A DNA stretch of 64,000 bases from positions 744,001 through 808,000 of the forward strand of contig NZ_SMRO01000001.1 of the NCBI RefSeq assembly GCF_004359985.1. The letters are read 5' to 3'. Under the pieces are notes generated by a model. It saw nothing but the letters and a program-made list of their open reading frames with translations. It ran no database searches and was not told the DNA's origin. The translations under genes were made by a program, and so were the position numbers. Source of the stretch: Paraburkholderia flava. GTDB taxonomy: Bacteria; Pseudomonadota; Gammaproteobacteria; Burkholderiales; Burkholderiaceae. Positions 45,370 through 60,317 of this stretch are shown in pieces (the stretch's first letter is position 1; each line of letters starts with the position of its first letter).

Positions 45370-46875
45370 CTACACCTGTCGACGCATCTCCGCCGGCGGC
45401 ACCTTCATCAGATGCCGATACTTCGCGATCGTGCGGCGCGCGACCAGCACGCCCTGATCGGCGAGCATCTTCGCGAGCGTCACGTCGGACAGCGGATCGC
45501 GAACGTTCTCCGCAGCGATCATTTCCTTCAACAGCGCGCGCACGGCAGCAGCCGAACACGTGCCGCCGCTTTCGGTGCCCAGCTCGCGCGGGAAGAAATG
45601 CTTGAACTCGAAGATGCCGCGCGGCGTCGCCATGTACTTGTTGCCCGTCGCGCGCGAGATCGTCGATTCGTGCAGACCGAGTTCGTCGGCGACGTCGCGC
45701 AACACGAGCGGCTTCAACGCGATTTCACCGTACTGGAAGAACGCCTTCTGATGCGTGACGATGCATTCGGCCACACGCTGGATCGTATCGAAACGCTGCT
45801 GCGCGTTGCGGATCAGCCAGCGCGCTTCCTGCAGCTGCTGCGCAAGCGGCGAACGGCTCGCGCCGGCCGATTGCGCAAACAGCTCCGCATACATCCGGTG
45901 AATGCGCGCGCGCGGCAGCACCGCCGGGTTGATCGCGACGACCCACTTATTGCGCACCTGACGCACGATCACATCCGGCACCACGTAGTTGTCTTCCGTG
46001 CGGCCGTACGAATTGCCCGGCTTCGGATCGAGCCGGCGTATCAGCGCGGTTGCTTCGCGCAGCGTCTCGGCGCTGCAACCGGTCTGCTTCTGCAACTCCG
46101 CATGCTCGCGGCGCGCAAGACGCTCCAGATGATGTTCGACGATCTCGCGCGCGACGTCGCGTGCGGGCGTGTCTTCCGGTAGCGCAGCGATCTGCAGCAT
46201 CAGGCATTCGGACAGCGAGCGCGCGGCGAGTCCCGGCCGGTCCAGCGACTGCACGAGTCGCAGCGCGACGAGCAGTTCGTCTTCGGTCAGCGCAGGTTCA
46301 AAATCGATCAGCGTCACGAGGTCTGCAAACGATTGACGCAGATAGCCGTCATCGTCGAGTGCTTCGATTACGAGGCGTGCCGCTTCGCGATCGCGCTCGT
46401 CGAGGCGATACAGACACAGCGCATCGTGCAGCTGTTCGTGTAGCGTCGGTTGCACACGCGCCCACGAGGACGGGTCCGCGCCCTCGCCGTCGCTACTCGA
46501 GCGCGACGCGCCGCGACCATACGGATCGCCGGGGAAATCGGCGCCGTGATCGTCGTGTCCGCCGTCGTCGCGTGAGTCGTCCTGTGATGCGGCTGGTGCA
46601 TCGTGCATTTCAGCCACGGCGGTGTCGCCCGACGCGTCGCGATCGAGTGCGGCCGCCTCTCCCGTGGCCGCATCGCTCGAAGCAGTCGACGACGTTTCGA
46701 GCGCGACGTCCTCGGTCTGCGACGAGTCGTACTCGAGAAACGGATTGGTATCGAGCGCTGTTCTGAGTTCCTGTTGAAACTCCAGCGAAGACAGTTGCAG
46801 CAGGCGTACCGATTGCTGCAAACGCGGCGTGAGCGCCAGCGATTGTCGTGCGCGCAATTCAAGCGATTGAGGCAT
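45370..46875 (-). CDS. rpoN: RNA polymerase sigma-54 factor, second-locus paralogue
   Basis: A 501-residue sigma-54. Region I starts MPQSLELRARQSLALTPRLQ; region II is an acidic linker (about 55-130); the core-binding domain spans about 130-310. The HTH (RDVADELGLHESTISRATGN) and the RpoN box (ARRTIAKYR, canonical ARRTVAKYR) recognise -12 and -24. The normal rpoN locus (lptA-lptB-rpoN-hpf-ptsN) is not here; instead stress-type small genes follow, so this is probably a dedicated second copy. The ATG at 46875 fits the family start; an upstream extension to 47241 is rejected. Many nearby genes have -24/-12 promoter candidates. Confidence 0.95.
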   Translation of the reverse strand: MPQSLELRARQSLALTPRLQQSVRLLQLSSLEFQQELRTALDTNPFLEYDSSQTEDVALETSSTASSDAATGEAAALDRDASGDTAVAEMHDAPAASQDDSRDDGGHDDHGADFPGDPYGRGASRSSSDGEGADPSSWARVQPTLHEQLHDALCLYRLDERDREAARLVIEALDDDGYLRQSFADLVTLIDFEPALTEDELLVALRLVQSLDRPGLAARSLSECLMLQIAALPEDTPARDVAREIVEHHLERLARREHAELQKQTGCSAETLREATALIRRLDPKPGNSYGRTEDNYVVPDVIVRQVRNKWVVAINPAVLPRARIHRMYAELFAQSAGASRSPLAQQLQEARWLIRNAQQRFDTIQRVAECIVTHQKAFFQYGEIALKPLVLRDVADELGLHESTISRATGNKYMATPRGIFEFKHFFPRELGTESGGTCSAAAVRALLKEMIAAENVRDPLSDVTLAKMLADQGVLVARRTIAKYRHLMKVPPAEMRRQV

Positions 46876-47266
46876 TGTCGGTGGTCCTGTCGATGAAATT
46901 CGATCGTGAAAACAGCAACTCCTGTGCCAATTGCGGCAACGTGCTGTTTTATCGACGCTTTGTTCTTTCGACGTGGCCCGGGACCTGCTACTTCGACCGC
47001 TGTTTTTACAAGGCACCGGAAAAATGCGGACATCGCTCGCACCTGGCGCACGGCATTCATTCCGCTCGCCCGACATCTTTAGATCTGCTGTAACGACGCG
47101 TCGCAGCACCGTCCCGCCGCAACGCGCGCACGCCGCAAGATTTGCCGGGCACAGCGCTTGCGGATCCGGTACGGGTGGACGGATGCCCTCGCTTTTTGAA
47201 TTGGGTCGAGAGACCGCAGCAAGGCAGTAGAACCGCCGCATTCATCAACAACCGGAAGGAGAGATC
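46876..47266. other. Divergent spacer between rpoN paralogue and BON gene
   Basis: This 391-base region holds the promoters of two divergent genes and no supported coding frame. A sigma-54-type element facing the BON gene is at 47147-47162. I see no obvious activator-binding repeat. Confidence 0.45.
47147..47162 (+). promoter_or_regulatory. Candidate sigma-54 promoter for BON protein
   Basis: GGGCACAGCGCTTGCG carries GGCAC and TTGC with the invariant GG-N10-GC spacing. It lies 105 bases upstream of the BON-protein start and 270 bases from the rpoN paralogue start. Confidence 0.6.
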
Positions 47267-47605
47267 ATGAGAACAATTCAGTTCCTCAAGGCTGCTGGCA
47301 GCATCGCATGCGTCGCGTTTGCCCTGAACGCTACTGCGCAGACGAGTGCTTCAGCACCGCCCGCTTCGTCGGAAACCGTCGGCCAGCATATCGACGACGG
47401 CACGATCACGACGAAGGTCAAGGCCGATCTGCTCGGCGCGAAGAACGTGAAGTCGACGCATATTCACGTGAAGACGCGCAAGGGCATCGTGTGGCTGTCG
47501 GGCACGGTGCCGTCCGCCGACGACAAGAGCGCGGCGCAGGACGTCGTGCAAAACGTCGACGGCGTGAAGGGCGTGAAGAATCATCTGAAGGTCGCGGCGG
47601 AATAA
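47267..47605 (+). CDS. BON domain periplasmic protein (OsmY-like)
   Basis: A 112-residue exported protein. The signal peptide (about 1-24, ending ATA-Q) is followed by a single BON domain (about 38-110): DGTITTKVKADLLGAKNVKS, then VWLSGTVPSADDK and VQNVDGVKGVKNHL. BON domains bind lipids or other proteins at membranes; OsmY-type members protect the envelope under osmotic stress, usually with two BON copies, whereas this has one. The start follows GGAAGGAGAG. It is divergent from the rpoN paralogue and has a sigma-54-type promoter candidate. Confidence 0.92.
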   Translation: MRTIQFLKAAGSIACVAFALNATAQTSASAPPASSETVGQHIDDGTITTKVKADLLGAKNVKSTHIHVKTRKGIVWLSGTVPSADDKSAAQDVVQNVDGVKGVKNHLKVAAE

Positions 47606-47665
47606 CGCTGCGGGCGACTGCTCGCAATGCTGGTGCAGGTTCGCCGGCTTCGCGTGAAGTTCAAC

Positions 47666-47697
47666 GGGCCGCCTGCTCGATGCAGGCGGCCCTTCTT
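47666..47697. terminator. Terminator between BON and PA2169-type genes
   Basis: GGGCCGCCTGC / GCAGGCGGCCC, an 11-base-pair stem with 5-base loop, followed on the plus strand by TTCTTT. It lies between two convergent genes and may serve both. Confidence 0.8.
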
Positions 47698-47717
47698 TAT
47701 GGCGAACGTTACAAACG

Positions 47718-48167
47718 TTATTTCCGCGCCGCATACTGGTCGCGCAGATCGCGGATGCGATCGTGATTCTGCAGCACGCCCTGATACTGCCGTTCGACCA
47801 CACTGCGCACATCCGCCGGCAAATCGTTGCCGAGCGCATCGCCGTAGTGCTTCTTCGCGACGTCCTCGCCCTTCTCGCAATCCGCGAGAATCGCGTGATC
47901 GTCGCGTCCACCCACCACCGACTTCACATCGACCCAGCCGCGATGCAGCGCGCCGCTGACGCTCCCGTGACTCTCCGGCTTGCCGCCCAGTTTGAGCACG
48001 ACGTCCTGCAGTTCGCGCGCACCGACCGCACAGTTGTCCGCACGATCGGCGAACAGCGTCTTCAGCTGTTGATCGTGCGCATCCTCGGCGGCCTTGCGAA
48101 AACCGCGCTCGCCATCCTTCGACGTTTCGACCAGATCGTTTAGCACTTCCACCACTTTCGTCGCCAT
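47718..48167 (-). CDS. PA2169 family four-helix-bundle stress protein
   Basis: A 149-residue, soluble, helical protein with the ferritin-like bundle pattern of the PA2169/DUF2383 family: VVEVLNDLVETSKDGERGFR (about 5-24), ELQDVVLKLGGKPESHGSVS and the acidic AILADCEKGEDVAKKHY helix. Carboxylates and His on these helices could bind metal, but no complete di-iron site can be assigned by eye. Family members accompany general-stress genes, as here. The start at 48167 follows GGGAGAGAC; an upstream extension is rejected. Confidence 0.9.
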   Translation of the reverse strand: MATKVVEVLNDLVETSKDGERGFRKAAEDAHDQQLKTLFADRADNCAVGARELQDVVLKLGGKPESHGSVSGALHRGWVDVKSVVGGRDDHAILADCEKGEDVAKKHYGDALGNDLPADVRSVVERQYQGVLQNHDRIRDLRDQYAARK

Positions 48168-48231
48168 CTGTCTCTCCCGGTTACGTTTGCTGTCATCGGC
48201 CCGCGGGCATCGCGGGACGTGCTCCCGATTC

Positions 48232-48247
48232 CGCACGGTGCATGCCT
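48232..48247 (-). promoter_or_regulatory. Weak sigma-54-like element before PA2169-type gene
   Basis: Minus strand AGGCATGCACCGTGCG keeps GG-N10-GC, GGCA and TGC, but lacks the first T of TTGC and has T for C in the -24 box. It lies 65 bases upstream of the start. Confidence 0.3.
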
Positions 48248-48402
48248 GAGCGCTACGTGAATGCAATGCGTGTCGCGATACCGCGTGGGACTGGCAGGAT
48301 TACCAGCGCTGCGTAGATATTGCGCGGTGATGTCGCTGGATCACGCGTGGTCACGCGAGCGAATTCGCCGATAAGCCTTGGCCGGCCGATGATTCGCCTC
48401 AA

Positions 48403-48418
48403 TGGCATGGACATTGCG
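48403..48418 (+). promoter_or_regulatory. Candidate sigma-54 promoter for small exported protein
   Basis: TGGCATGGACATTGCG matches TGGCA, G and TTGC of the consensus with exact GG-N10-GC spacing, about 92 bases upstream of the start at 48510. Confidence 0.55.
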
Positions 48419-48509
48419 TTATTTGAGCGCCCGCACGCGTCGCCGCCTGCATTCGCATGCGCCGGATGCACGAAGACGGCCTTAACACGACAAAGAGGGA
48501 GCAGCACAA

Positions 48510-48794
48510 ATGAAAACCAGGACCATCGAGTCGCTGGTGTTCGTGGCAATCGTCACGTCAGCCGGCGTCATGCAGATTCGCGAACACCTGCTGCCGGTCG
48601 CGCACGCGACCTCAGCGAGTTCCACCGCGACTACCTGTGCGCAACAGCCGGCGGGCGTGATACCGGCTTCGTGCGTGTCGTTACGCGATTCGCGCACGCC
48701 GCACGATGAAGCCCAGGACCGCACACGCAACGACGCTGATGAACCGGCCGATCGCGCGACCACGATCACGCATCGCGCACAGATCTGGGTATAG
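48510..48794 (+). CDS. Small exported or membrane-anchored hypothetical protein
   Basis: A 94-residue protein with an N-terminal hydrophobic segment (SLVFVAIVTSAGVMQIREHL, about 8-27), which may be a signal anchor or peptide; the rest is hydrophilic with three Cys positions near the centre (TTCAQQ, ASCVSL) and a charged C-terminus. The ATG follows GAGGGAG. A sigma-54-type promoter precedes it and a terminator follows, so it is a complete single-gene unit. No family recognised. Confidence 0.7.
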   Translation: MKTRTIESLVFVAIVTSAGVMQIREHLLPVAHATSASSTATTCAQQPAGVIPASCVSLRDSRTPHDEAQDRTRNDADEPADRATTITHRAQIWV

Positions 48795-48820
48795 ACAGCA
48801 CAGACATCCGCTTTAGGCGC

Positions 48821-48855
48821 ACGGCGGTCGCTGGTCCCGGGCCGCCGTCCTTTTT
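48821..48855 (+). terminator. Terminator after small exported protein gene
   Basis: ACGGCGG and CCGCCGT form a stem around a 14-base loop, followed by CCTTTTTG. It lies 27 bases after the stop at 48794. Confidence 0.72.
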
Positions 48856-48889
48856 GTTTTGTTACCCGAGCGACAACCGAGCGACAACG

Positions 48890-49489
48890 TTACGCAGAAC
48901 TCGAGTTCTGCATCTGCTCTTCGCTCACGCGATCGAGCGGCGTCGGCGTACGCGTCGGATCGAAATCGGCCCAACGCCCCTGCTGCCAGCGCCCGCTCGC
49001 ACGCTCCACTTCCACGCCGCCGGTATCGCGCAGCACACGTGCGGCCACTTGCTGCGTGTCGGGCGACACGTGCACGGCCAGCAGCACACCGGAGCTGTGC
49101 TCTTCGTGTGGTCCCTTCTCTCGATGCGCAAGCCGGCCGCCGCGACGCGTATGCGACATCGCGCCGATCAGCGACCCGATATACGCACCGACGCCGGCCG
49201 CGATGATCGACACGAGCAACGGTGCCGCGAATGTCGCGAAGATGGCGACGCCGACGATCGCACCCACGACCGCGCCGATCGTCACGCCCTTGCCTGCGCC
49301 CTTCGGTGCATCGACGGAAGCCGGGTCCTCGTTCATGTCTCCGCCGATCGGATGCCGCGCATGCTGGCCGCGCGGATTGACGAAGAACAGCGTGACGTCC
49401 TCTTCGACGAAACCGCTTTCGAACAGCCGCTGGGCGGCGTCCTCGGCGGACGGGAACGTCGTATAGCGTGCAGCGACGATCAATGACAT
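48890..49489 (-). CDS. Glycine-zipper membrane stress protein
   Basis: A 199-residue protein. An N-terminal soluble domain (about 1-45: SLIVAARYTTFPSAEDAAQR, then FVEEDVTLFFVNPRG) resembles general-stress proteins that begin with a ferredoxin-like fold. Two Gly-spaced membrane segments follow (VTIGAVVGAIVGVAIFATFA and IAAGVGAYIGSLIGAM, about 68-112), then a second soluble domain with AVHVSPDTQQVAARVLRDTG. The start at 49489 follows AGGAGG. It is the last gene of a minus-strand stress-gene series. Function unknown. Confidence 0.85.
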   Translation of the reverse strand: MSLIVAARYTTFPSAEDAAQRLFESGFVEEDVTLFFVNPRGQHARHPIGGDMNEDPASVDAPKGAGKGVTIGAVVGAIVGVAIFATFAAPLLVSIIAAGVGAYIGSLIGAMSHTRRGGRLAHREKGPHEEHSSGVLLAVHVSPDTQQVAARVLRDTGGVEVERASGRWQQGRWADFDPTRTPTPLDRVSEEQMQNSSSA

Positions 49490-49542
49490 GTCAGCCTCCT
49501 CTAGAACGACATACAAACGCAACGTGAGGCAACCGCGCGATG

Positions 49543-49839
49543 CTATTCGTCGCGCCCCGCCTCGATGCCTTCGACGCGGAAGAATCCGCTGCGCAGCACC
49601 ACGCTCGCCCCTTCGTTCTGTTCGAGCGCTGCCGAGCACACCGGACGAATGCGCGGCCTGCCGCGCTCGAACGCGGCGAGCAGCACGCTCTCCAGCGGCG
49701 AATCGGCACCGAAGTGATCTTCGAGTGCCTCCGCCGTGATTTCGCAGATCACCGGCTCGCCGTCCACGTGCGCGATAAAACGGACGGTCAGGCTCGCACC
49801 GTCGAAAGCCGGAGGGTCGTCGGGAAAAGTGATGTGCAT
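49543..49839 (-). CDS. DUF1488 family protein
   Basis: A 98-residue soluble protein starting MHITFPDDPPAFDGASLTVR. The pattern VRFIAHVDGEPVICEITAEA then LEDHFGADS is typical of the DUF1488 family of small beta-rich proteins with unknown function. The start follows GGAGGCTGCG. It lies 53 bases before the glycine-zipper gene and 57 bases after the PfpI-type gene on the same strand, so all three may be co-transcribed. Confidence 0.85.
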   Translation of the reverse strand: MHITFPDDPPAFDGASLTVRFIAHVDGEPVICEITAEALEDHFGADSPLESVLLAAFERGRPRIRPVCSAALEQNEGASVVLRSGFFRVEGIEAGRDE

Positions 49840-49896
49840 CGCAGCCTCCCTGTTTGCGGTGCGACGCGTCGTGACGCATCGCCTGGCGTGTCGCGT

Positions 49897-50460
49897 TCAA
49901 GCCGCCTTGCGCCTGCTCAACTGCGCGGTCAACTGCTTGATCAGCGCGCGGTTGAACGCCGGCAGATCGTCCGGCTTGCGGCTCGTGATCAGGTTGCCGT
50001 CCTCGACCACCTCGCGATCCACCCAGGTGCCGCCCGCGTTGCGGATGTCGTCCTGCAGACTCGGCCAGCTCGTTACCGTGCGGCCCTTCACGATGCCCGC
50101 CGACACCGGCAGCCACGTACCGTGGCAAATCACCGCGATCGGCTTCTTCGCGCCATCCGCGTCTTTAACGAAGGCCTGCGCCTTCGGCAGCAGGCGGATC
50201 GCGTCGCCGTTCACGACGCCGCCCGGCAACACGACGGCGTCGTAATCGTTCGCGATGGCATCGTCGAACGTCGCGTCGACGTCGACCTGATCGCCCTTGT
50301 CGACGTGCTTGAAGCCCTGGATCTTGCCGGGCTTCGCCGAAATCACGTGCACGGTGGCGCCGGCTTCGGCCAGCGCGCGTTTCGGCTCGACGAGTTCAGC
50401 CTGTTCGAAACCGTCGACGGCCAGCACCGCGACCTTGCAACCGTTCAAAGCGTTAGACAT
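49897..50460 (-). CDS. DJ-1/PfpI family protein (type 1 glutamine amidotransferase-like)
   Basis: A 187-residue protein of the PfpI/YhbO/DJ-1 superfamily. It shows VAVLAVDGFEQAELVEPKRA (conserved Glu near 19), the Cys nucleophile in AVICHGTW, and SLQDDIRNAGG. Family members include general-stress proteins such as YhbO and proposed deglycases; ATP-independent protease activity is doubtful. The start at 50460 follows GGAGAGCC. A sigma-54-type promoter candidate is 92 bases upstream. It lies in a run of stress genes, which fits a protein-repair or glyoxal-defence role. Confidence 0.92.
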   Translation of the reverse strand: MSNALNGCKVAVLAVDGFEQAELVEPKRALAEAGATVHVISAKPGKIQGFKHVDKGDQVDVDATFDDAIANDYDAVVLPGGVVNGDAIRLLPKAQAFVKDADGAKKPIAVICHGTWLPVSAGIVKGRTVTSWPSLQDDIRNAGGTWVDREVVEDGNLITSRKPDDLPAFNRALIKQLTAQLSRRKAA

Positions 50461-50551
50461 GACTGGCTCTCCTTGATGCGAAAAATTTCCGGAAGAATGA
50501 GAAAAACCCTTAAAACAGATGAAAAGTGATGTGCGGACGTGCGTGCGGTGC

Positions 50552-50567
50552 AGCAATCCGCACGCCT
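50552..50567 (-). promoter_or_regulatory. Candidate sigma-54 promoter for PfpI-type gene
   Basis: Minus strand AGGCGTGCGGATTGCT has GGC, G and TTGC with GG-N10-GC spacing; the A and C of GGCAC are G and T. It lies just downstream of the preceding gene's end and 92 bases before the PfpI start. Confidence 0.45.
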
Positions 50568-50580
50568 CGCCCGCTTCTGA

Positions 50581-50932: not shown

Positions 50933-51274
50933 TCAACGTTCACCGCGCGCATCGGCATCAGCATCGGATAGCGGATCGTCGATGCGATCCGGTTCGATGT
51001 CTTCGTCCAGTTCTAGCGTGCCGTCGCCGTCCGCGGATGCGCGCTCGCCGGTGCCATGACGATCGGTGTCACTCGCGAGTTCGGTATCGCCGGTTTCGAG
51101 CGCGTGCTCGTCGAGTTCGCTGTCGCGGTCGAAGTCGTGCCGCTTCGCACCTGCGACGTCGCTGCCGCTATCGGACGAATCGCTTGGTCCCAGCGACCCG
51201 GTATCGTGGCCGCGTGGTTCGCCCTCATCGGGCGTATGCAACGGTTCTTCATCGGGATTCAACGTGCTGCTCAT
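50933..51274 (-). CDS. Acidic, disordered small protein
   Basis: A 113-residue protein composed mainly of Asp, Glu, Ser, Gly and Thr (for example DPLSDADADARGER at the C-terminus), with almost no hydrophobic stretch; it is surely disordered. The start follows GGAGGCACG and supports a real gene. It is the first of a run of five minus-strand small genes reaching down to 48.9 kb and has a sigma-54-type promoter candidate 75 bases upstream. Charge-rich disordered proteins of this sort can act as desiccation or osmotic protectants, but that is a guess. Confidence 0.72.
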   Translation of the reverse strand: MSSTLNPDEEPLHTPDEGEPRGHDTGSLGPSDSSDSGSDVAGAKRHDFDRDSELDEHALETGDTELASDTDRHGTGERASADGDGTLELDEDIEPDRIDDPLSDADADARGER

Positions 51275-51348: not shown

Positions 51349-51364
51349 CGCAAACGTCGTTCCT
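51349..51364 (-). promoter_or_regulatory. Candidate sigma-54 promoter for the 48.9-51.3 kb stress series
   Basis: Minus strand AGGAACGACGTTTGCG has ACG and TTGC with exact GG-N10-GC spacing, the C of GGC being A. It is 75 bases upstream of the ATG at 51274. Confidence 0.5.
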
Positions 51365-51825
51365 CGTCAGGTGTGTAGAGGTGGCATCGCGTTTGCTCGG
51401 GGCGGATTTTTCCTTGTATTCGATCCCGTTGCGTTTTTACCGATATGCGGTCGCGACCCGTGCGATTTGATCGGGATATCCAGTTTCACGCGCCCGTTAA
51501 ATTCACGCGGAAATCATCTTCGACAGATTCATCGAATCATTAAACCCCGACAAAGCAATGAAACCCTGCCTCTATTAAATAGCCACTACGCCGGATATAA
51601 ATTTAAATCAGGAATATCTGAAATACCGGAATGACCCATCGTGCATTTTCCATGTAGCCATAGAACCACTCCCCGTAACCACAAGACCAATTTCCGCTGC
51701 GACAGGCGATTTCAGCCCGATATTACGAAAACATTCAATCGATATAATGCCTCGCTTAATTTCATGTTGATCCAGAAATTTTTCCAATTTAATTGACCTG
51801 ACGGCTATAAATCCAGATGATTAGC

Positions 51826-51905: not shown

Positions 51906-53255
51906 ATGGAGAACAGCATGCAATTCGATTTGTCCTCATCCCGTGTCCGTCATGTCCCTGTCCAGGCGGATTCTCATGTGTCGAAGAAACGATCGTCGAT
52001 TGCGAAGAACGCGGTATTGAGCGTCGCCGCAGCGCTGCTGATGCTCGGGCTATCGTCCGAACGCGCATCGGCAGCGAGTGCATGGGCACCCGATACGTAT
52101 TACGCGGCGGGCACGGTCGTGAGTTACAACGGCAACGATTACCAGGCACTCGTCAGTCAGACCGATTATTCGAGTACCGGCTGGAATCCGACGACTGCAT
52201 CGCTATGGACGCTCGTCGGCCCGGACTCCGGCTCGGGCGGCACCACGCCGCCGTCGGGCCCAGGTACGGGTGGTCCGACCGGGACGGCGCCGGGGTTCAT
52301 CTATAGCCCGTACAAGGACGCGTCGATCTCGATGAACTGGAACACCAACACGATCTCGACAAACGTGACCGGCAGACTGAGTCCCGTGTTGACCGTCCTG
52401 CCGACCAGCGTGCGCACGCTCACCCTCGCGTTCGCGACCGGCGAATGCGGCAGCGAGAACTGGGGCGGCGTCGGCGCCGCTGCGCTCGCATCGGCAAACG
52501 TGTCGCTGTTCACTGCGTCGAACGTCAACTACATCGTTTCGACGGGCGGTGCAGGCGGCGTGTTTTCCTGCGGCACCGACGCGGGCATGACGACGTTCAT
52601 CAATCGCTACGCGTCGAAGAATCTGGTCGGCATCGACTTCGACATCGAGGGAGGACAAACGCAGCAGGTCATCAACAACCTCATACAGCGTGTCGTCGCA
52701 GCGCAGAAGCAGTTCCCGAATCTGCGCTTCAGCTTCACGCTCGCGACGGTTGCGCCTGCGCCGTCGGGCGCATCGAAAGCAACGTCGTGGGGCGCCAGTG
52801 CGCCAGACAGCTTCAATACGTACGGCGACTGGGTGATGCAGGCCATCAAGACCTACGGCCTGCAGAACTACACGATCAACCTGATGACGATGGACTACGG
52901 TTCGGCGCTTCCAGGCAACTGCGTGCTGTCGGGTGGAGCGTGCCAGATGGGGCAATCGACCGTCCAGGCTGCGTTGAATCTGCACGATCACTGGGGCGTG
53001 CCGTATAACCAGATCGAAGTCACACCGATGATCGGCGGCAACGACTCGGCCGGCGAGACGTTCACGCCGGGCGACGTGGACACCGTCACGAGCTTCGTCA
53101 AGCAGTACGGCCTGGTGGGCCTGCACTTCTGGTCGCTTGATCGCGATGCCGACTGCGCGCCCGGTGCTGCATCGCCGACGTGCAATTCGATCGGTGGTGT
53201 GGGCGCGCTCGGTTACACGAACCACTTTGCCAGCGATCTTGCGTCTGGAGGGTAG
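51906..53255 (+). CDS. Secreted GH18 chitinase with carbohydrate-binding module
   Basis: A 449-residue exported enzyme. After an N-terminal extension, the signal core is AVLSVAAALLMLGLSS (about 36-51). A CBM5/12 module follows (AWAPDTYYAAGTVVSYNGND, then W residues at GWNPTTASLWTLV; about 58-105), a Gly/Thr/Pro linker (about 106-128), and a GH18 domain (130-445) with the catalytic IDFDIEGG near 245 (D-x-D-x-E). It should cut chitin from fungi or insects. The second ATG at 51918 has a better-spaced GGAG and may be the true start. A leader hairpin and an AT-rich upstream region precede it; a strong terminator follows. Confidence 0.93.
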   Translation: MENSMQFDLSSSRVRHVPVQADSHVSKKRSSIAKNAVLSVAAALLMLGLSSERASAASAWAPDTYYAAGTVVSYNGNDYQALVSQTDYSSTGWNPTTASLWTLVGPDSGSGGTTPPSGPGTGGPTGTAPGFIYSPYKDASISMNWNTNTISTNVTGRLSPVLTVLPTSVRTLTLAFATGECGSENWGGVGAAALASANVSLFTASNVNYIVSTGGAGGVFSCGTDAGMTTFINRYASKNLVGIDFDIEGGQTQQVINNLIQRVVAAQKQFPNLRFSFTLATVAPAPSGASKATSWGASAPDSFNTYGDWVMQAIKTYGLQNYTINLMTMDYGSALPGNCVLSGGACQMGQSTVQAALNLHDHWGVPYNQIEVTPMIGGNDSAGETFTPGDVDTVTSFVKQYGLVGLHFWSLDRDADCAPGAASPTCNSIGGVGALGYTNHFASDLASGG

Positions 53256-53507: not shown

Positions 53508-53523
53508 AGGCACTTACCTTGCT
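53508..53523 (+). promoter_or_regulatory. Candidate sigma-54 promoter for topoisomerase IB
   Basis: AGGCACTTACCTTGCT carries GGCAC and TTGC with exact GG-N10-GC spacing. It lies 57 bases upstream of the ATG at 53580 and directly after the chitinase terminator. Confidence 0.6.
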
Positions 53524-53579: not shown

Positions 53580-54782
53580 ATGACCCGGACCGATGCATCC
53601 TCCTCCCCGCCAGCCGTCGACACACCGACGATGCCCACAGGCCTGCGGCACGCGGACGACTCGCGCCCAGGTTACACGCGCAGACGACAACGCAACGCAT
53701 TCGTCTATTACGACACGTCGGGCCAGCGTATCCGCGATAAAGCGGAAATCGCACGCATCAATGCGCTCGTGATCCCTCCGGCCTATACCGACGTGTGGAT
53801 CTGCACAGACCCACGCGGCCATCTCCAGGCAACGGGCCGCGATGCACGCGGTCGCAAGCAGTATCGCTATCACCCGCGCTGGCGTGAGACACGCGATGCC
53901 GATAAATACGGTCGCATGCAGGCGTTCGGATGCGCGTTGCCGCGCATCCGGCGCCGCGTCAAACGCGATCTGAAACTCGCCGGCATGCCACGCGACAAGG
54001 TGATTGCCGCGGTCGTCGATCTGCTCGACACGACGTTGATCCGCATCGGCAGCCCCGAATACGCACGCGACAACCAGTCATACGGATTGACGACGTTGCG
54101 CAAGAAGCACGTCAAGATCGAAGCGGGCCAGGTGCGATTTCGCTTTAGCGGCAAGAGCGGCGTCGAGCACGACGTCACGGTCGACAATCCGCGCGTCAGG
54201 AAGATCGTGCGGCGCTGCGCGGAATTGCCGGGACACGAACTGTTCAAGTACCTCGACAGCGACGGCGAGCGGCATACGGTCGGCTCCGCGGATATCAACG
54301 ACTATCTGCGCGAAGCGAGCGGCGCGGACTTCACCGCGAAGGACTACCGGACGTGGGCGGGCAGCGTGTTCACGCTCGCGTCGCTGCGGCACGCTACGTG
54401 TGAAAGTCCGGCGGAAATACGGCGTCATGTCGTCGACACCGTGAAGGACGTCGCGGCGCTGCTGCGCAATACGCCTGCTGTGTGCCGCAAGTGCTACATC
54501 CATCCTGCGGTGCTCGCGGCTTTCGAAGCGGGTGCGCTAACGGGTCTCGTAACGGAGCGGGTGCGGCGCGGGATGAAATCGGATGAAGCGGCGCTCGCTG
54601 CACTGCTCGAACGCGCGGAACGGACGGCTCGCCGTGATGCGCGTCGCAACGCGAACGGTAGCCATGCAAACGCAAAAAGGGCAAAGCCTGCGGAAAAGAC
54701 ACGCCATATCGAACAGCCCGCGTCCGCTACGACTCGTCGTAAGCCGCCATCACGAGCCAGAGGTCGTGATCTTCATCCTTGA
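53580..54782 (+). CDS. Bacterial DNA topoisomerase IB
   Basis: A 400-residue type IB topoisomerase, of the poxvirus-like bacterial family. The catalytic set is visible: RKQYRYHPRWRE (Arg near 98 and Lys), KDYRTWAGS (Arg, near 258) and the nucleophile Tyr in RKCYIHP (about 307). It relaxes supercoils through a 3'-phosphotyrosine intermediate. The C-terminal 60 residues are Lys/Arg/Ala-rich. The last 56 bases overlap the convergent 97-residue gene. A ribosome site before the ATG is weak, so a nearby alternative start is possible. A sigma-54-type promoter candidate suggests stress induction. Confidence 0.93.
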   Translation: MTRTDASSSPPAVDTPTMPTGLRHADDSRPGYTRRRQRNAFVYYDTSGQRIRDKAEIARINALVIPPAYTDVWICTDPRGHLQATGRDARGRKQYRYHPRWRETRDADKYGRMQAFGCALPRIRRRVKRDLKLAGMPRDKVIAAVVDLLDTTLIRIGSPEYARDNQSYGLTTLRKKHVKIEAGQVRFRFSGKSGVEHDVTVDNPRVRKIVRRCAELPGHELFKYLDSDGERHTVGSADINDYLREASGADFTAKDYRTWAGSVFTLASLRHATCESPAEIRRHVVDTVKDVAALLRNTPAVCRKCYIHPAVLAAFEAGALTGLVTERVRRGMKSDEAALAALLERAERTARRDARRNANGSHANAKRAKPAEKTRHIEQPASATTRRKPPSRARGRDLHP

Positions 54783-55020: not shown

Positions 55021-55115
55021 GATTAAACCTCTTCGGCGCAGGCGTACTGCGCGCATCTGCCACTCTCTTGCCGTCTCGCAGCGTCGGAACACCAAGCCAG
55101 TCACTGCGTAAAACT

Positions 55116-55144: not shown

Positions 55145-55212
55145 GAATCCTTGCAGGGCGACTGCTGCCCTGCATGGGGCCGGCCGCGGACACTCCGCGG
55201 ACCGGAACGTCG

Positions 55213-55497
55213 TTACTGGCTCGCGCCCGACGCCGCAGCCGGTGCACTCGCGCCAGTGTCAGCCCCTGGTGCGCTTGCGCTCATATCGGCCGATGCACCC
55301 GCCGCCGGCGTGTTTGCGCTTGAATCCGCTGCGCCGCTGCTCGGCGAAGGCGCACTCATCGCACCGCTACTGCTCGCGCTGCTGTCGCTGCTCGAAGCAC
55401 TGTTGTCCGCACGCTTGCAGCCAGCTGCGCCGAGCGTGACGAGCGCGATCGATGCGATCACGAGAACGTTCTTCATCTGGATCGTGTTCAGCTTCAT
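55213..55497 (-). CDS. Small Ser/Ala-rich lipoprotein
   Basis: A 94-residue lipoprotein. The signal peptide is MKNVLVIASIALVTLGAAGC with lipobox LGAAGC ending at about residue 27; the mature part is almost only Ser, Ala, Asp, Gly and Pro and likely an extended, disordered tether. The start at 55497 follows GGAGGG. It has the best-matching sigma-54 promoter in the region (55539-55554). No family recognised. Confidence 0.85.
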   Translation of the reverse strand: MKLNTIQMKNVLVIASIALVTLGAAGCKRADNSASSSDSSASSSGAMSAPSPSSGAADSSANTPAAGASADMSASAPGADTGASAPAAASGASQ

Positions 55498-55538
55498 TGC
55501 AAGCCCTCCTGGCTTTGGTGGCAACCCGATTACGATGG

Positions 55539-55554
55539 AGCAAGCACCGTGCCT
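55539..55554 (-). promoter_or_regulatory. Sigma-54 promoter before small lipoprotein
   Basis: Minus strand AGGCACGGTGCTTGCT contains the full GGCACG-N4-TTGC(T) consensus with exact GG-N10-GC spacing; it is 42 bases upstream of the start at 55497. Of the elements found here this is the closest match. Confidence 0.7.
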
Positions 55555-55791
55555 TCCGCCACACGAATGTGCGGGCCAGACCCTGTGTACGTCGCGTGAC
55601 GAGGCAGGCCATGTTCTTCGCGGTGCGGTAGGCGGCCGGAGAACGGCGGTAAATTACACAGGCCGACGTAATTCCTTCGCCCCTCTTTTTGCACCGTATG
55701 TGGGTCAACTGGCGATTCGCGTGTGGATTTGCGTGTAGCGCGCTGCCACGCGAATCGTGTAACGTCGGCTTTCTTCCACGGAGAACCCATC

Positions 55792-56466: not shown

Positions 56467-56506
56467 GCGTTCTTGCCAGACCTTCCCGTTCCGCGACCGA
56501 TTCTCG

Positions 56507-56522
56507 CGGAACGGCGTTTGCT
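56507..56522 (+). promoter_or_regulatory. Candidate sigma-54 promoter for PRC-barrel protein
   Basis: CGGAACGGCGTTTGCT has ACG, TTTGC and exact GG-N10-GC spacing, with A for C after GG. It lies 41 bases upstream of the start at 56563 and 40 bases after the HAD gene stop. Confidence 0.55.
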
Positions 56523-56562
56523 GTATCGCTTGAACGTCACACCTCGAATCGGGAGATCCCTC

Positions 56563-57111
56563 ATGACCCAGCAGCTCAACCATCCCTCGCCTGTCGCGGA
56601 CACGGGCGCACGCATCGTCGGCAAAGGCAGCGCGACCGCCGACGGTCCCGGCCCGAGCGTAATGGCCGCCTCGACACTCGACGGCAACAAGGTGCTCAGC
56701 ACCGACGGCGACGACGTCGGCAAGGTGAAGGACATCATGCTCGACGTGCGAAGCGGACGGATCGCGTACGTCGTGCTGTCGAGCGGCGGCTTTCTCGGTA
56801 TCGGCGACAAACTGCTCGCGATTCCGTGGAGCGCGCTCACGCTCGATACCGGACGCAAATGCTTCGTGCTGTCGATTTCGTCGGAGCGGGTGAAAAACGC
56901 GCCGGGCTTCGACAAGGAGCACTGGCCTTCGATGGCGGACCAGACGTGGGCTACTTCCGTTCATCAGTACTACGGCATCGAGCCTTACTGGAGCGATGAC
57001 GGCGACGCACGCGACCGTTCGCGTGCGCAGCCGCCACGCGACGATCTCGGCGTCGGCGACATTCCGGCGGGGTCGTCGGATGCGCCGGAGGCGGGGGGCG
57101 TGAAGCTCTGA
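56563..57111 (+). CDS. PRC-barrel domain stress protein
   Basis: A 182-residue soluble protein with a PRC-barrel fold (about 38-110): VMAASTLDGNKVLSTDGDDV, VGKVKDIMLDVRSGRIAYVV and LLAIPWSALTLD are the usual signature strands. The C-terminal 70 residues (with W/Y-rich HQYYGIEPYWSDD) are an extra segment. PRC-barrel proteins bind RNA, photosynthetic reaction centres or other partners; bacterial stand-alone copies are stress-linked, role unclear. The start follows GGGAG. It has its own terminator. Confidence 0.9.
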   Translation: MTQQLNHPSPVADTGARIVGKGSATADGPGPSVMAASTLDGNKVLSTDGDDVGKVKDIMLDVRSGRIAYVVLSSGGFLGIGDKLLAIPWSALTLDTGRKCFVLSISSERVKNAPGFDKEHWPSMADQTWATSVHQYYGIEPYWSDDGDARDRSRAQPPRDDLGVGDIPAGSSDAPEAGGVKL

Positions 57112-57127
57112 GCATGTAGCTGTACAC

Positions 57128-57151
57128 GGCGCCCCATTGCGGGCGCCTTTT
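57128..57151 (+). terminator. Terminator after PRC-barrel gene
   Basis: GGCGCCC and GGGCGCC form a 7-base-pair stem with a 6-base loop, followed by TTTT; it begins 17 bases after the stop. Confidence 0.85.
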
Positions 57152-57183
57152 CGTCCCCCAAGGCTCGGCGCGCGACCCAACAC

Positions 57184-57199
57184 GGGCACACCCCTTGCG
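57184..57199 (+). promoter_or_regulatory. Candidate sigma-54 promoter for DUF3175 gene
   Basis: GGGCACACCCCTTGCG carries GGCAC and TTGC with exact GG-N10-GC spacing. It lies 41 bases upstream of the start at 57240 and just after the previous terminator. Confidence 0.6.
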
Positions 57200-57239
57200 C
57201 GCCTCCTCCGCATCGCTTCACTTTTTGCGAGGAGCCACG

Positions 57240-57638
57240 ATGACTACCCGGAAATCGAAGCACCCGACCCAACACCCTTCCACGCGCGGCAAGTCTGGCC
57301 ATCCGCCGCGTCAGCGTCACGCCCAGGCAAACGCAGCACACACGGCACGCGCATCCGCAAACAGCAACCATCGCTGGTCGCATCACGTGATGGAAACCAG
57401 CGACGCGATGGACATCGAAGGCGACATCTTCAAGTCCGGCAGCGCCGAGGCCATCGCGCAGTCGCTGAAACGCTCGTCGACGCATAGCCGTCGCCGCAAG
57501 GGCACGCCGTTCCAGTCCGCGATGTCGATGCTCAATTTCTACATCAACCGCGCGGGTCACAATCTGCCGAAGACACGCAAGGTGACGCTGCAACAGGCCA
57601 AGCGCAAACTCCGCGAAGCGTTTGGACGTGCGCCCTGA
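57240..57638 (+). CDS. DUF3175 family protein
   Basis: A 132-residue basic protein. The first 40 residues are a Ser/His/Arg/Ala-rich tail; the DUF3175 core (about 45-130) reads WSHHVMETSDAMDIEGDIFK, KRSSTHSRRRKGTPFQSAMS and LNFYINRAGHNLP, and ends in KAK-type helices. Its high basic charge and small size suggest nucleic-acid binding, but that is not shown. The start follows AGGAG. It lies 60 bases before the antiporter gene and may be co-transcribed with it from the sigma-54-type promoter. Confidence 0.9.
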   Translation: MTTRKSKHPTQHPSTRGKSGHPPRQRHAQANAAHTARASANSNHRWSHHVMETSDAMDIEGDIFKSGSAEAIAQSLKRSSTHSRRRKGTPFQSAMSMLNFYINRAGHNLPKTRKVTLQQAKRKLREAFGRAP

Positions 57639-57698
57639 TGCTGCACCCGCGCCGCATACGACGCACCGCCGAATCAAGCTACCAATCGACGAGCCGCG

Positions 57699-59024
57699 AT
57701 GCATGAGAACGCCTGGTTCCTGATCGTCGGCGCGGTGCTCGTGTTCATGGGCATCGCGGCAACCACGCTGAAGCGGCTGCCGTGCAGCGCCGCGATGTTC
57801 TATCTGGCGATCGGCTACGCGCTGGGGCCGTCGGGCGCGGGCCTGCTCGTCCTCGATGCCGTGCGCGACGCACCGCTGCTGCGCCTGCTCACCGAAGTCG
57901 CGTTGCTCGTCTCGCTGTTCGCAATCGGCCTGCGATTGCGGGTGCCGCTGTTCGACCGATTGTGGGCGTTGCCGCTGCGACTCGGCTTCGTCGCGATGGT
58001 GTTGACGGTGCCGCTCGTCGCGGCGTTCGGCGTGTACGTGCTGCAACTCGCGTGGGGACCGGCGCTGCTGCTTGCCGCGATCCTCGCACCGACCGACCCG
58101 GTGCTCGCACACGACGTCCAGGTGCAGAATCCCGGCGACGTCGATCTGCTGCGTTTTGCGCTATCGGGCGAAGGCGGTCTGAACGACGGCATTGCGTTGC
58201 CGTTCGCGTTGCTCGGGCTCATGTGGTGCGCCGCGCCTTCAGCCAGCGGTGCCGACGCGATCACGTGGTCTTTCGCGGGCAGCGTGCTGTGGGGTGTCGT
58301 CGGTGCGCTCGTGGTCGGCGGGACGCTGGGCTGGGCGGCCACGCATATGGTGACGTGGCTGCGGACGCGTCACGAGCAGGCGCTCGGACTCGAAGGCTTC
58401 TTCGCGCTCGGCCTGATCGAACTCGCGTACGGCGTTGCGCAGATCGCGCACACGTATGGCTTTCTCGCCGTGTTCGCAGCCGGCGTCGCGATGCGACGCG
58501 TCGAGCAGCGCGCGAGCGGCGACCGCTCGCCGCACGAAGCGATCGGTGCGATCGATGCGCAGGACGTCACCGCGACCGCCGCCGATCCGCAAAAAGCCCA
58601 TGCGTATATGGCGGAATCGGTGCTCGGCTTCACGATCGAACTCGAGCGTATTGCCGAAATGGCGGTGATGACGATGATCGGTGCCACGCTATCCGGTCTA
58701 CCGCAGCAGCACATCGCGCTGCTCACGTGGAACAACGCGGCGCTCGTCGCCGTGCTGTTCCTGATCGTGCGTCCCGTTGCTGCCGAACTGTCGTTGACGG
58801 GGTCGAGCGCGTCGCGGGCGCAGCGGCGTCTGGTCAGCTGGTTCGGCATTCGCGGAATCGGCTCGTTCTACTACCTCGCATTCGCGCTCGAACGCGATCG
58901 CAGCGCGCAGATCGCGGCGCTCGTGTCGCCGGTGCTGGCCGTGGTTGCGGCATCGGTCATCGTGCATGGCGTGTCGGCGACGCCGCTAATGAAGCGCTAC
59001 CGGATGCGAGATTCGTCGCAGTAG
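57699..59024 (+). CDS. CPA1-family sodium/proton antiporter (NhaP-like)
   Basis: A 441-residue inner-membrane transporter with about 12 helices. The ion-binding helix reads LAPTDPVLAHDVQV (about 128-141; the acidic DP pair) and SGEGGLNDGIALP (about 155-167) matches the CPA1 signature. It should exchange sodium or potassium for protons in pH and salt stress. A short basic C-terminus follows. It probably shares a transcript with the DUF3175 gene 60 bases upstream and converges on a response regulator. Confidence 0.92.
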   Translation: MHENAWFLIVGAVLVFMGIAATTLKRLPCSAAMFYLAIGYALGPSGAGLLVLDAVRDAPLLRLLTEVALLVSLFAIGLRLRVPLFDRLWALPLRLGFVAMVLTVPLVAAFGVYVLQLAWGPALLLAAILAPTDPVLAHDVQVQNPGDVDLLRFALSGEGGLNDGIALPFALLGLMWCAAPSASGADAITWSFAGSVLWGVVGALVVGGTLGWAATHMVTWLRTRHEQALGLEGFFALGLIELAYGVAQIAHTYGFLAVFAAGVAMRRVEQRASGDRSPHEAIGAIDAQDVTATAADPQKAHAYMAESVLGFTIELERIAEMAVMTMIGATLSGLPQQHIALLTWNNAALVAVLFLIVRPVAAELSLTGSSASRAQRRLVSWFGIRGIGSFYYLAFALERDRSAQIAALVSPVLAVVAASVIVHGVSATPLMKRYRMRDSSQ

Positions 59025-59081
59025 TGCGTCGACACAGCCACACGCCCAACGTCGCGCAGTTTTTGCAACCGTCGTGCAAGT

Positions 59082-59564
59082 TCACGACGCGCCGCCCGTG
59101 GGTCGCGCGGTGGCGACTTCGAGCACACGCAGCAGCCGCTGCGGCGTGAGCGGCTTCGCGCAGTGCGCATCGAAGCCCGCCTCCTTCGCGCGCTCGCGAT
59201 CGCCGCTCGATGCAAATGCGGTACATGCAATCAGCAGCATGTGCCCGGTCGCGGGATCGGCACGCAAACGACGCGCGAGCTGCAACCCGTCGAGTCCCGG
59301 CATCGCGATGTCCAGCACGACCGCGAACGGCTGCCATGCGCCGGCCAGTGCGCAGGCTTCGCGCGGGTCGTTCAACGTGCGGCATTCAAAGCCGTCAGCG
59401 TCCAGCAGCAACTGCAGCGCGTCGGCCGCTTCGCAATAGTCGTCGACGACCAGCACGCGGCGGTGGTCGGTCATTGCACGTGCAATCGGACGCCATAGCA
59501 CGACGTCGTCGTTCGAGTACGCATCGTGTGACGCGTCGCCGGGTGATCCGGGTGTCCCGCTCAT
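59082..59564 (-). CDS. Single-domain response regulator
   Basis: A 160-residue CheY-like receiver. VLVVDDYCEAADAL supplies the acidic pair (about 38-41), VLDIAMPGLDGLQLA the phospho-Asp (about 84) and CAKPLT the conserved Lys (about 137). There is no output domain, so it probably passes or takes phosphate in a relay, or binds a partner. The first 30 residues are variable; the start follows GGGAGG. The closest partner by content is the hybrid kinase at 11-16 kb, but no link is shown. A sigma-54-type element is upstream. Confidence 0.9.
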   Translation of the reverse strand: MSGTPGSPGDASHDAYSNDDVVLWRPIARAMTDHRRVLVVDDYCEAADALQLLLDADGFECRTLNDPREACALAGAWQPFAVVLDIAMPGLDGLQLARRLRADPATGHMLLIACTAFASSGDRERAKEAGFDAHCAKPLTPQRLLRVLEVATARPTGGAS

Positions 59565-59606
59565 TGCTTTCCTCCCTGTGGCGGCTGGGCGCCAGACGGA
59601 GTTGAG

Positions 59607-59622
59607 CGCAAGTTGTGCGCCC
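59607..59622 (-). promoter_or_regulatory. Candidate sigma-54 promoter for receiver protein
   Basis: Minus strand GGGCGCACAACTTGCG keeps GGC and TTGC with exact GG-N10-GC spacing; the A of GGCAC is G. It is 43 bases upstream of the start at 59564. Confidence 0.4.
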
Positions 59623-59675
59623 GGGGTGTGCGGGTGCGCTTACGAGTCAGCCGCGAAACTGCATGCGACGTGCGC

Positions 59676-59691
59676 CGGTACGCGGCTTGCT
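59676..59691 (+). promoter_or_regulatory. Candidate sigma-54 promoter for DUF4142 gene
   Basis: CGGTACGCGGCTTGCT has GG, ACG and TTGC with exact GG-N10-GC spacing, with T for C after GG. It lies 57 bases upstream of the start at 59748. Confidence 0.5.
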
Positions 59692-59747
59692 GATTCGAAG
59701 ATGTTTTCCGCGTCCCACGCGGATCGATCGTTCCCGATGGAGGATTC

Positions 59748-60317
59748 ATGAAGCTAGCCACTACCACGCTCGCTACGCTCACCGTTGCCGCAGCCGCGGG
59801 CATGCTGCCGTTGCCTTTCGTCGCTTCGTCGGCGTTTGCGCAGACCGATGCCGCGTCGACGACCTCAGCGAACGCGCTGCCGGATGCGGATCGACAGTTC
59901 GTGCAAACCGCGTCTGCGGCAGGCTCGACGGAAATCGACGCGGCAAAACTTGCGTTGCATCAGTCGAACGATGCCGACGTGAAGTCGTTCGCGCGTCACA
60001 TGATCGTCGATCATACGAAGCTCGCCGCCCAGTTGAAGATGGCCGCGCCGCACGGCGTATCGATACCGAAGGACAATGCCGATCAGCAGGCGCTCGACGC
60101 GCTGAAGCCGTTGAAGGGCAAGGACTTCGACACGGCCTATGTGCAAAAGCTCGCGGTGCAGGGTCATAAGGACGCCGTCGCGGTGTTCCAGGACGAAGCG
60201 TCGAACGGTCAGAACGCGAGCCTGAAGAAAGCCGCGCAAAAGGCGCTGCCGACGATCCAGCATCACTACAAGATGGCGCAGGCGCTTGCGCAGAAGAAGG
60301 GCATCGCGGCGCAGTGA
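59748..60317 (+). CDS. DUF4142 family exported protein
   Basis: A 189-residue exported, helical protein. The signal peptide (about 1-31, ending AFA-Q) precedes a ferritin-like DUF4142 domain: DADRQFVQTASAAGSTEIDA, KSFARHMIVDHTKLAAQLK and HKDAVAVFQDEASNGQNASL. His and acidic residues on these helices recall a bundle metal site. The family is linked to acid and envelope stress and is common in Burkholderiales. The start follows GGAGG. It converges on the DJ-1/AraC regulator without a clear terminator. Confidence 0.92.
   Translation: MKLATTTLATLTVAAAAGMLPLPFVASSAFAQTDAASTTSANALPDADRQFVQTASAAGSTEIDAAKLALHQSNDADVKSFARHMIVDHTKLAAQLKMAAPHGVSIPKDNADQQALDALKPLKGKDFDTAYVQKLAVQGHKDAVAVFQDEASNGQNASLKKAAQKALPTIQHHYKMAQALAQKKGIAAQ

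Follow-up and report, generated by a model that had tools for sequence, protein, structure and literature searches.

The 64,000-nucleotide stretch of Paraburkholderia flava DNA analysed here (contig NZ_SMRO01000001.1, positions 744,001 to 808,000; below, the window) carries a second gene for the RNA polymerase factor sigma-54, rpoN2, beside a gene cluster (45.4-60.3 kb) in which many gene starts are preceded by GG-N10-GC elements. Judged from sequence comparisons, this cluster is probably the core of a general-stress regulon that is transcribed by sigma-54, possesses its own autoregulated RpoN2 and is driven by two enhancer-binding proteins, EBP1 and EBP2. An rpoN2-linked sigma-54 stress regulon had been proposed in an initial annotation of the window, and the proposal gained support from the enrichment of the sites, from their conservation, from a site before rpoN2 in 80 of 80 orthologues and from the linkage of the activators in relatives. 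Membership in a general stress regulon is suggested by the kinds of gene present.

Candidate promoters were scored by their match to TGGCAC-N5-TTGC (10 positions, GG-N10-GC spacing). Within the cluster we counted sites of at least 8/10 with GG and GC intact that lay on the coding strand no more than 130 bp 5' of a gene start. Ten of the 19 gene starts had such a site; 500 dinucleotide shuffles gave a mean of 0.51 and a largest value of 4, and none reached 10. The density of these sites was 4.54 per kb upstream of genes, 0.234 per kb elsewhere in the window and 0.042 per kb (a single site) in the coding DNA of the cluster, about one hundredth of the upstream value, so that coding DNA did not carry them at the density seen before genes. 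All eight window sites with at most one mismatch fell within 46.9-59.1 kb, whereas about 0.6 per 13 kb would be expected from the genome density; seven of them keep GG and GC, and six of these seven precede a gene start. The site at 59065 lacks GG, and the one at 51382 has no nearby gene start.

The GG-N10-GC elements that the initial annotation had listed before small stress genes were all present in the sequence. Those at the BON, small exported protein, topoisomerase IB, lipoprotein and DUF3175 genes scored 9/10 and those at the acidic protein, PRC-barrel, receiver and DUF4142 genes 8/10; the element described as weak before the PA2169-type gene (DUF2383) proved real at 7/10, and that before PfpI was likewise weak (7/10). 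The best site of the window, TGGCACAGGAGTTGC, was absent from that list. It lies about 40 bp before rpoN2 and is the only 10/10 match. Outside the window, 38 further genome sites with GG and TTGC intact were picked by eye among the 100 matches listed, which reach 2.4 Mb of contig C1 (at least four other qualifying sites among these matches were not picked). Twenty-nine of the 38 lay inside apparent coding open reading frames (ORFs) by a criterion based on GC content at third codon positions; this criterion overcalls, because two of the seven window sites were also called 'inside', and the contrast between window and genome stands.

Conservation was analysed in rpoN2-centred loci of Paraburkholderia, Caballeronia and relatives (the best 80 of 411 candidates, up to 10 kb per side), where the 250 bp before each orthologue were searched for sites of at least 8/10 and 60 permuted consensuses served as control. 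A site preceded rpoN2 in 80/80 loci, BON in 76/78, DUF2383 in 58/69, the small exported protein gene in 23/23, PfpI in 54/54, the acidic protein gene in 47/47, topoisomerase IB in 31/32 and PRC in 31/36. These eight gene sets thus retain the site in 84-100% of the orthologues counted, a level that none of the permuted consensuses attained (best 0.30-0.60). Rows with a poor E-value, an incomplete N-terminus or short upstream DNA had been left out (small exported protein 7/30, glycine-zipper protein 4/31, PfpI 2/56, topoisomerase IB 2/34, DUF1488 2/69, antiporter 3/25, DUF4142 5/61, receiver 23/25, and one each for acidic protein, PRC and DUF3175). The orthologues of PfpI and DUF2383 have stronger sites than the window, at a median of 92 and 90 bp before the start, near the positions of the weak window sites. 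Antisense counts were also high (topoisomerase IB 29/32, DUF2383 45/69, acidic protein 24/47, rpoN2 35/80), at least partly because divergent genes share one intergenic region. In rows aligned on sites of at least 8/10, the core columns carried 1.65-1.92 bits as against 0.16-0.59 bits in the 45 bp upstream, an excess that is partly by construction because the rows were anchored on these sites. Caballeronia upstream alignments that were not site-anchored nevertheless displayed conservation of both halves of the element for rpoN2, BON, otsA, the acidic protein, PfpI, DUF2383 and the gene c18262.

Several gene sets mostly lack a site of their own: the glycine-zipper protein (1/27), DUF1488 (6/67), p54727 (2/16), the antiporter (2/22), DUF3175 (4/32), MFS (0/5) and the receiver (0 of only two orthologues). 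Intermediate counts were obtained for HAD (6/15) and DUF4142 (12/56), and no lipoprotein orthologue was found among the 80 loci. Separate promoters for DUF1488, the glycine-zipper protein, p54727, the antiporter and DUF3175 were accordingly rejected, their upstream sites not being conserved. Of the two promoters that the initial annotation had placed before the DUF3175-antiporter pair and before DUF4142, both are present as sequence in the window; the former is kept in relatives in only 4/32 cases, and the latter has weak cross-species support, its 12/56 coming via a probable paralogue. Codirectional following with a gene gap below 700 bp was regular in the relatives: DUF4142 after PfpI in 50/50, DUF1488 after DUF4142 in 60/60, the glycine-zipper gene after DUF1488 in 23/23, DUF1488 after PfpI in 37/56 (DUF4142 often lies between), DUF3175 after PRC in 32/32 and the antiporter after DUF3175 in 20/20 of the relatives with both genes. 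Because they are such close codirectional followers, DUF3175 and the antiporter look like parts of a PRC operon, and DUF1488 and the glycine-zipper gene likely belong to an operon headed by PfpI. A supposed PRC-DUF3175 paralogue in locus L095, with two sites 674 bp apart, was discarded by eye, one site lying in a coding stretch and the other before a 24-codon ORF. This ORF, with its site CGGCACACCCCTTGC (L095:5453-5613), encodes a hydrophobic peptide; by eye, the peptide is similar to a 49-residue protein encoded beside BON in the more distant genome G056 (L102:12491-12640).

The genome contains two rpoN genes, in keeping with the view that the copy beside the series of sites is an extra one; its product has the domains of a sigma-54 protein, exceeds the NF009118 cut-off and is 45% identical to the other RpoN, encoded on contig C3. 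In a tree of 33 RpoN proteins (midpoint root), RpoN1 and RpoN2 of the genus formed separate clades. The gene rpoN2 occurs in 33 of 35 same-genus genomes, G029 and G034 being the two without it, and its upstream site was found in all 85 regions examined. The divergent rpoN2-BON pair is also present with RpoN2 versions that are 62-66% identical; in L108 and L109 both sides of the pair carry a site of at least 9/10, and in L110 the rpoN2 side does. Because the only perfect site of the window stands before it, rpoN2 is probably autoregulated. RpoN2 keeps the activator-interacting domain and should therefore need an AAA+ activator.

As the initial annotation had noted, no enhancer-binding activator is encoded in the window: none of the 14 strong matches in the genome lies there. 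Thirteen of the 14 have a GAFTGA-type loop. An NtrC-type regulator at C2:817918 (L094) has a lower AAA+ score and no such loop by the pattern used, and is possibly not a sigma-54 activator. In 24 loci, a gene some 4 kb downstream from rpoN2 has a product 88-91% identical to EBP1 (C4_192096). Sixty-eight of the 80 loci extended at least 6.2 kb in the downstream direction; in the comparison with these loci, in which only the best match of each locus was taken, EBP1 was the best activator match near rpoN2 in 24 of the 68. Other activators gave weaker matches at the locus edge in L018 and L020. The 24 loci with EBP1 are all Caballeronia-type, a class assigned by names and layout: 19 are named Caballeronia, and the other five are Burkholderia sp. 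8Y, B. turbans, B. peredens, Candidatus Paraburkholderia kirkii and Ca. P. calva. EBP2 stands beside EBP1 in 23 of these 24 loci.

The Caballeronia stretch next to rpoN2 comprises the acidic protein gene, otsA, DUF883, c18262 and EBP2; in the genome that holds the window (G000), EBP1 and EBP2 are on contig C4 beside otsA and DUF883. All 35 same-genus genomes, the window's own included, have the pair (84-100% identity for EBP1, 75-100% for EBP2). OtsA was identified by TIGR02400. A site precedes otsA in 31/31 cases and c18262 in 22/22, and none of 100 permuted consensuses, the control used also for c14888 and katE, scored as high. The gene c14888 was dropped as a regulon member, its site (2/31) being no better than with permuted consensuses. 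EBP1 itself had no sigma-54 site in 20 of 21 Caballeronia-type loci; a conserved TATAAT-like stretch is found instead (L068, beyond 17186), and EBP1 may be made from a housekeeping promoter. Both activators have remained unnamed because they fall below the cut-off of the NCBIfam models among the matches listed (25/105 and 25/26). Second EBP1-like copies, 84% identical in G013 and 76% identical with an internal stop in G001, were also seen.

The long catalase gene katE was searched because a published Burkholderia pseudomallei rpoN2 mutant lost its expression. It was detected in 10 of 40 genomes at the cut-off used, and in 8 of these 10 a site scoring at least 8/10 is located close to the gene start (permuted mean 0.24, highest 0.60; 0/100 as high). 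A site before katE is thus shared with the RpoN2-katE system of B. pseudomallei, whose DNA is not among these regions. L157 (G000:C1:999506) and L126-L128 encode small, glycine-rich exported proteins whose genes have a sigma-54 site; in three genomes the gene is divergent from katE. Among wider relatives, genome G056, from another family of the order, combines katE, DUF2383, EBP1, EBP2, PRC, a CsbD-like gene (below the Pfam cut-off) and BON in one stretch; DUF2383 and the CsbD-like gene are each preceded by a 9/10 site, and the interval that contains these sites also has a 10/10 match. Genome G039 contains a second rpoN whose own site (9/10) starts 47 bp upstream of the gene; PRC (no site), DUF1328 (site) and EBP1 lie within about 6 kb of it. 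G055 likewise has a second rpoN, 1.5 kb away from BON and accompanied by several sites; its EBP1-like gene, split into two pieces, is near PRC on a different contig. Both of these additional rpoN copies form very long branches in the RpoN tree, and their placement is unsure. Overall, EBP1 and EBP2 co-occur with the targets, and they are linked to them in Caballeronia-type loci and in other families, not in Paraburkholderia.

Three intergenic regions contain a candidate enhancer motif, CGCA-N3-TTTAC / TTGTAAAAAC: the one shared by rpoN2 and BON, the one separating DUF2383 from the small exported protein gene, and the one before PRC; its three best window matches all lie in the stress region. 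A looser profile, trained on the relatives' versions of these same regions, takes in rpoN2 in 59/80 and BON in 58/76. A palindromic form of the motif, CGTAA-N3-TTACG, is present at 8/10 or better before c18262 in 22/22; partial occurrence was seen before the small exported protein gene (0.48 of 23), DUF2383 (0.30 of 60) and PRC (0.26 of 31), over a background of 0.055. It was rejected as a common enhancer, being not above background at rpoN2 (0.05), BON (0.07), PfpI, the acidic protein gene, topoisomerase IB and otsA. The best match to the motif, at 59050-59072, is located where the antiporter and receiver genes converge with their 3' ends, and there is no obvious promoter that it would serve.

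The sites, their conservation and the linkage of the genes are observed; we infer that RpoN2 uses the conserved sites and that EBP1 and EBP2 are its activators. In the mechanism that we propose, RpoN2 would be a second sigma-54 with a dedicated role, and by activating its own gene, which is divergent from BON, it would create positive feedback. It would transcribe a set of separate small operons, namely BON; DUF2383; the small exported protein; PfpI-DUF1488-glycine zipper; the acidic protein; topoisomerase IB; the lipoprotein; and PRC-DUF3175-antiporter, probably together with the receiver and DUF4142. The predicted regulon would extend elsewhere in the genome to otsA (trehalose) and katE. Open-complex formation would be driven by the divergently encoded AAA+ pair EBP1/EBP2 on the other contig, and a stress or stationary-phase signal would presumably reach EBP1 via a kinase. 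We lean slightly towards a wider view: an old sigma-54 general stress response in the Burkholderiales, built on a self-activating RpoN paralogue and an EBP pair and running parallel to RpoS. Such a response would induce catalase HPII, trehalose synthesis, topoisomerase IB and small BON, PRC, CsbD and DUF proteins.

A number of observations weigh against an RpoN2 regulon driven by EBP1 and EBP2, and the alternative explanations draw on some of them. No kinase was recognised next to EBP1, and none was found by eye among the listed ORF starts of L101, L102 and L112, of which a part was family-scanned. No fitting site was found at the katE, PRC or EBP genes of G056 or at the PRC gene of G039, and two of the ten katE regions reach only 7/10. 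An earlier report of katE possibly being under RpoS is mentioned in PMC4745423.

The strongest alternative, which we consider rather unlikely, is that the EBP1/EBP2-controlled sigma-54 promoters are served also or mainly by RpoN1, RpoN2 being an autoregulated amplifier or a redundant copy. The weightiest counter-evidence comes from G029 and G034, which lack rpoN2 yet keep the EBP pair and the otsA site, so that RpoN1 is probably able to serve the regulon at least in part; moreover, B. pseudomallei RpoN2 restored amino-acid use in an Escherichia coli rpoN mutant, from which it follows that sigma-54 proteins can share promoters (PMC4745423). The retention of rpoN2 (33/35 genomes), of its site (85/85) and of BON (78/80 loci) argues, however, for a dedicated role, as does the loss of katE expression in the rpoN2 single mutant of B. 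pseudomallei (PMC4745423). It is less likely still that the regulon depends on RpoN2 and is activated by an enhancer-binding protein other than EBP1 and EBP2. Paraburkholderia loci with sufficient flanking DNA show no linkage of the pair to rpoN2, and PfpI, the acidic protein gene, topoisomerase IB and otsA have no enhancer motif upstream, which makes the motif a candidate only; but in the loci examined the activators that do neighbour rpoN2 or stress genes are EBP1 and EBP2 (best match per locus, with the weaker others in L018 and L020).

We regard as very improbable that the motif is another directional element, such as the -35 element (GGAAC) of an extracytoplasmic-function (ECF) sigma factor or a transcription-factor site. 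The acidic protein sites, mostly CGGAAC..TTGC, and the PRC sites do read GGAAC; most gene sets, rpoN2 itself being among the sets, read GGCAC. An ECF reading of the GGAAC variants was rejected because TTGC is conserved with them at sigma-54 spacing, for the acidic protein also in the alignments that were not site-anchored. Chance matches in GC-rich upstream DNA have a negligible likelihood: although the site totals are at or below chance (71 window matches with at most two mismatches versus 72.7 expected; 327 genome matches with at most one mismatch, fewer than the 631 for the reversed pattern), so that the motif is not enriched overall and the signal is one of placement and quality, chance is contradicted by the placement (0/500 shuffles) and by cross-species conservation exceeding that of permuted consensuses. 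The RpoN2 regulon with EBP1 and EBP2 as activators is the explanation that we favour.

General stress responses are as a rule attributed to RpoS, SigB or EcfG-type systems, whose regulons have similar targets, for example catalase HPII, OtsA, CsbD and BON proteins. These factors are of a different sigma class, whereas sigma-54 needs an ATP-driven activator. RpoS is also encoded in the genome of the window. With their AAA+ domain bearing GSFTGA and a Fis-type helix-turn-helix (HTH), EBP1 and EBP2 resemble NtrC-family regulators and the receiver-less HrpS/PspF, respectively. If the proposed regulon is real, a sigma-54 stress response would be ATP-gated by its activator, so that stress genes could be kept strictly silent in the absence of a signal, and the autoregulation of rpoN2 could render the switch self-sustaining. 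The genes, the sites and the two regulators are named, which makes the proposal directly testable.

The closest described system is B. pseudomallei RpoN2 (PMC4745423), a possible orthologue of the window's RpoN2, likewise encoded by a second rpoN (on chromosome 2) and associated with an RpoN box before katE; katE expression was undetected in the rpoN2 mutant, and the wild type expresses the gene at 48-72 h. That system differs in having one target, and the parts of the report available to us describe no regulon, activator or autoregulation. The regulon proposed here would explain the dependence of katE on RpoN2. The katE-rpoN2 link is also cited in PMC6004011. A general-stress set under a local sigma-54 had been regarded as new in the initial annotation; this needs qualification, since control of katE by RpoN2 was already published for B. 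pseudomallei (PMC4745423). Neither a sigma-54 stress regulon nor the EBP1/EBP2 pair is described in the titles and abstract openings of the mainly open-access literature on rpoN2, Burkholderia and stress. RpoNp of Bradyrhizobium sp. DOA9 (PMC13207237) is also a second sigma-54, plasmid-borne and proposed to tune stress genes; unlike the present system it is alphaproteobacterial and has other targets, and no dedicated activator is named in the available parts of the report. Ralstonia and Xanthomonas share the pattern of two sigma-54 paralogues, RpoN1 and RpoN2, with divided tasks (PMC4371752, PMC7280030). The tasks differ from those proposed here, comprising twitching, competence, nitrate growth and virulence for Ralstonia rpoN1 (not rpoN2) and virulence, flagella and metabolism in Xanthomonas. 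Some Burkholderiales are reported to have two sigma-54 variants (PMC3162934), and the rpoN studied in P. phymatum is Bphy_0326 (PMC5979394). In stationary B. thailandensis, RpoS was not significantly increased, and RpoE and RpoN were named as possible factors (PMC12322963), a question for which the regulon would, if confirmed, offer a candidate factor. Among the increased products tabulated in that study are a DUF4142 protein, raised at the transcript level, and an OsmY-domain protein, raised in the proteome; orthology to the window genes is assumed for neither.

Table 1. Features of the rpoN2 cluster (window positions) and of the activator pair (contig C4 of the same genome). Site scores are matches out of ten positions.
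Feature	Position	Strand	Evidence
rpoN2, second sigma-54 (activator-interacting, core-binding and DNA-binding domains)	45370..46875	-	PF00309, PF04963, PF04552; NF009118 778 bits, cut-off 396
Sigma-54 site TGGCACAGGAGTTGC before rpoN2	46915..46929	-	10/10; 80/80 orthologues
Candidate enhancer motif (TTTTTACAAG / CTTGTAAAAAC) between rpoN2 and BON	46993..47015	+	third-best motif match of the window
Sigma-54 site GGGCACAGCGCTTGC before BON	47147..47161	+	9/10; 76/78 orthologues
BON-domain exported protein	47267..47605	+	PF04972
DUF2383 (PA2169-type) protein	47718..48167	-	PF09537
Weak sigma-54 site AGGCATGCACCGTGC before DUF2383	48233..48247	-	7/10, GG and GC intact; 80 bp before start
Candidate enhancer motif between DUF2383 and small exported protein gene	48307..48329	-	second-best motif match of the window
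Sigma-54 site TGGCATGGACATTGC before small exported protein	48403..48417	+	9/10; 23/23 orthologues
Small exported protein, no family match	48510..48794	+	Pfam, NCBIfam
Glycine-zipper-like protein, likely PfpI operon	48890..49490	-	below Pfam cut-off
DUF1488 protein, likely PfpI operon	49543..49839	-	PF07369
PfpI/DJ-1 protein, likely operon head	49897..50460	-	PF01965
Weak sigma-54 site AGGCGTGCGGATTGC before PfpI	50553..50567	-	7/10, GG and GC intact; 107 bp before start
Acidic small protein	50933..51274	-	
Sigma-54 site AGGAACGACGTTTGC before acidic protein	51350..51364	-	8/10; 47/47 orthologues
Sigma-54 site AGGCACTTACCTTGC before topoisomerase IB	53508..53522	+	9/10; 31/32 orthologues
DNA topoisomerase IB	53580..54782	+	PF01028, PF21338
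Small probable lipoprotein	55213..55497	-	sequence; no Pfam match
Sigma-54 site AGGCACGGTGCTTGC before lipoprotein gene	55540..55554	-	9/10
Sigma-54 site CGGAACGGCGTTTGC before PRC-barrel gene	56507..56521	+	8/10; 31/36 orthologues
PRC-barrel protein	56563..57111	+	PF05239
Sigma-54 site GGGCACACCCCTTGC before DUF3175	57184..57198	+	9/10; kept in 4/32 only
DUF3175 protein	57240..57638	+	PF11373
Na+/H+ antiporter	57699..59024	+	PF00999
Stand-alone response-regulator receiver	59082..59564	-	PF00072
Sigma-54 site GGGCGCACAACTTGC before receiver gene	59608..59622	-	8/10; 0/2 orthologues
Sigma-54 site CGGTACGCGGCTTGC before DUF4142	59676..59690	+	8/10; 12/56, via probable paralogue
DUF4142 exported protein	59748..60317	+	PF13628
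EBP1, NtrC-type response regulator (receiver, AAA+, Fis HTH, GSFTGA)	G000 C4:191619-193016		PF00158, PF02954
EBP2, receiver-less activator divergent from EBP1 (AAA+, Fis HTH, GSFTGA)	G000 C4:194272-195324		PF00158, PF02954

Further Pfam families over the cut-off in the cluster were CBM5/12 and HAD. The 9/10 site TGGCATCGCGTTTGC at 51382-51396 (+ strand) points to the gene at 51906-53255 (+ strand), about 500 bp away, whose product combines a CBM5/12 module with a GH18-like stretch (below the cut-off).

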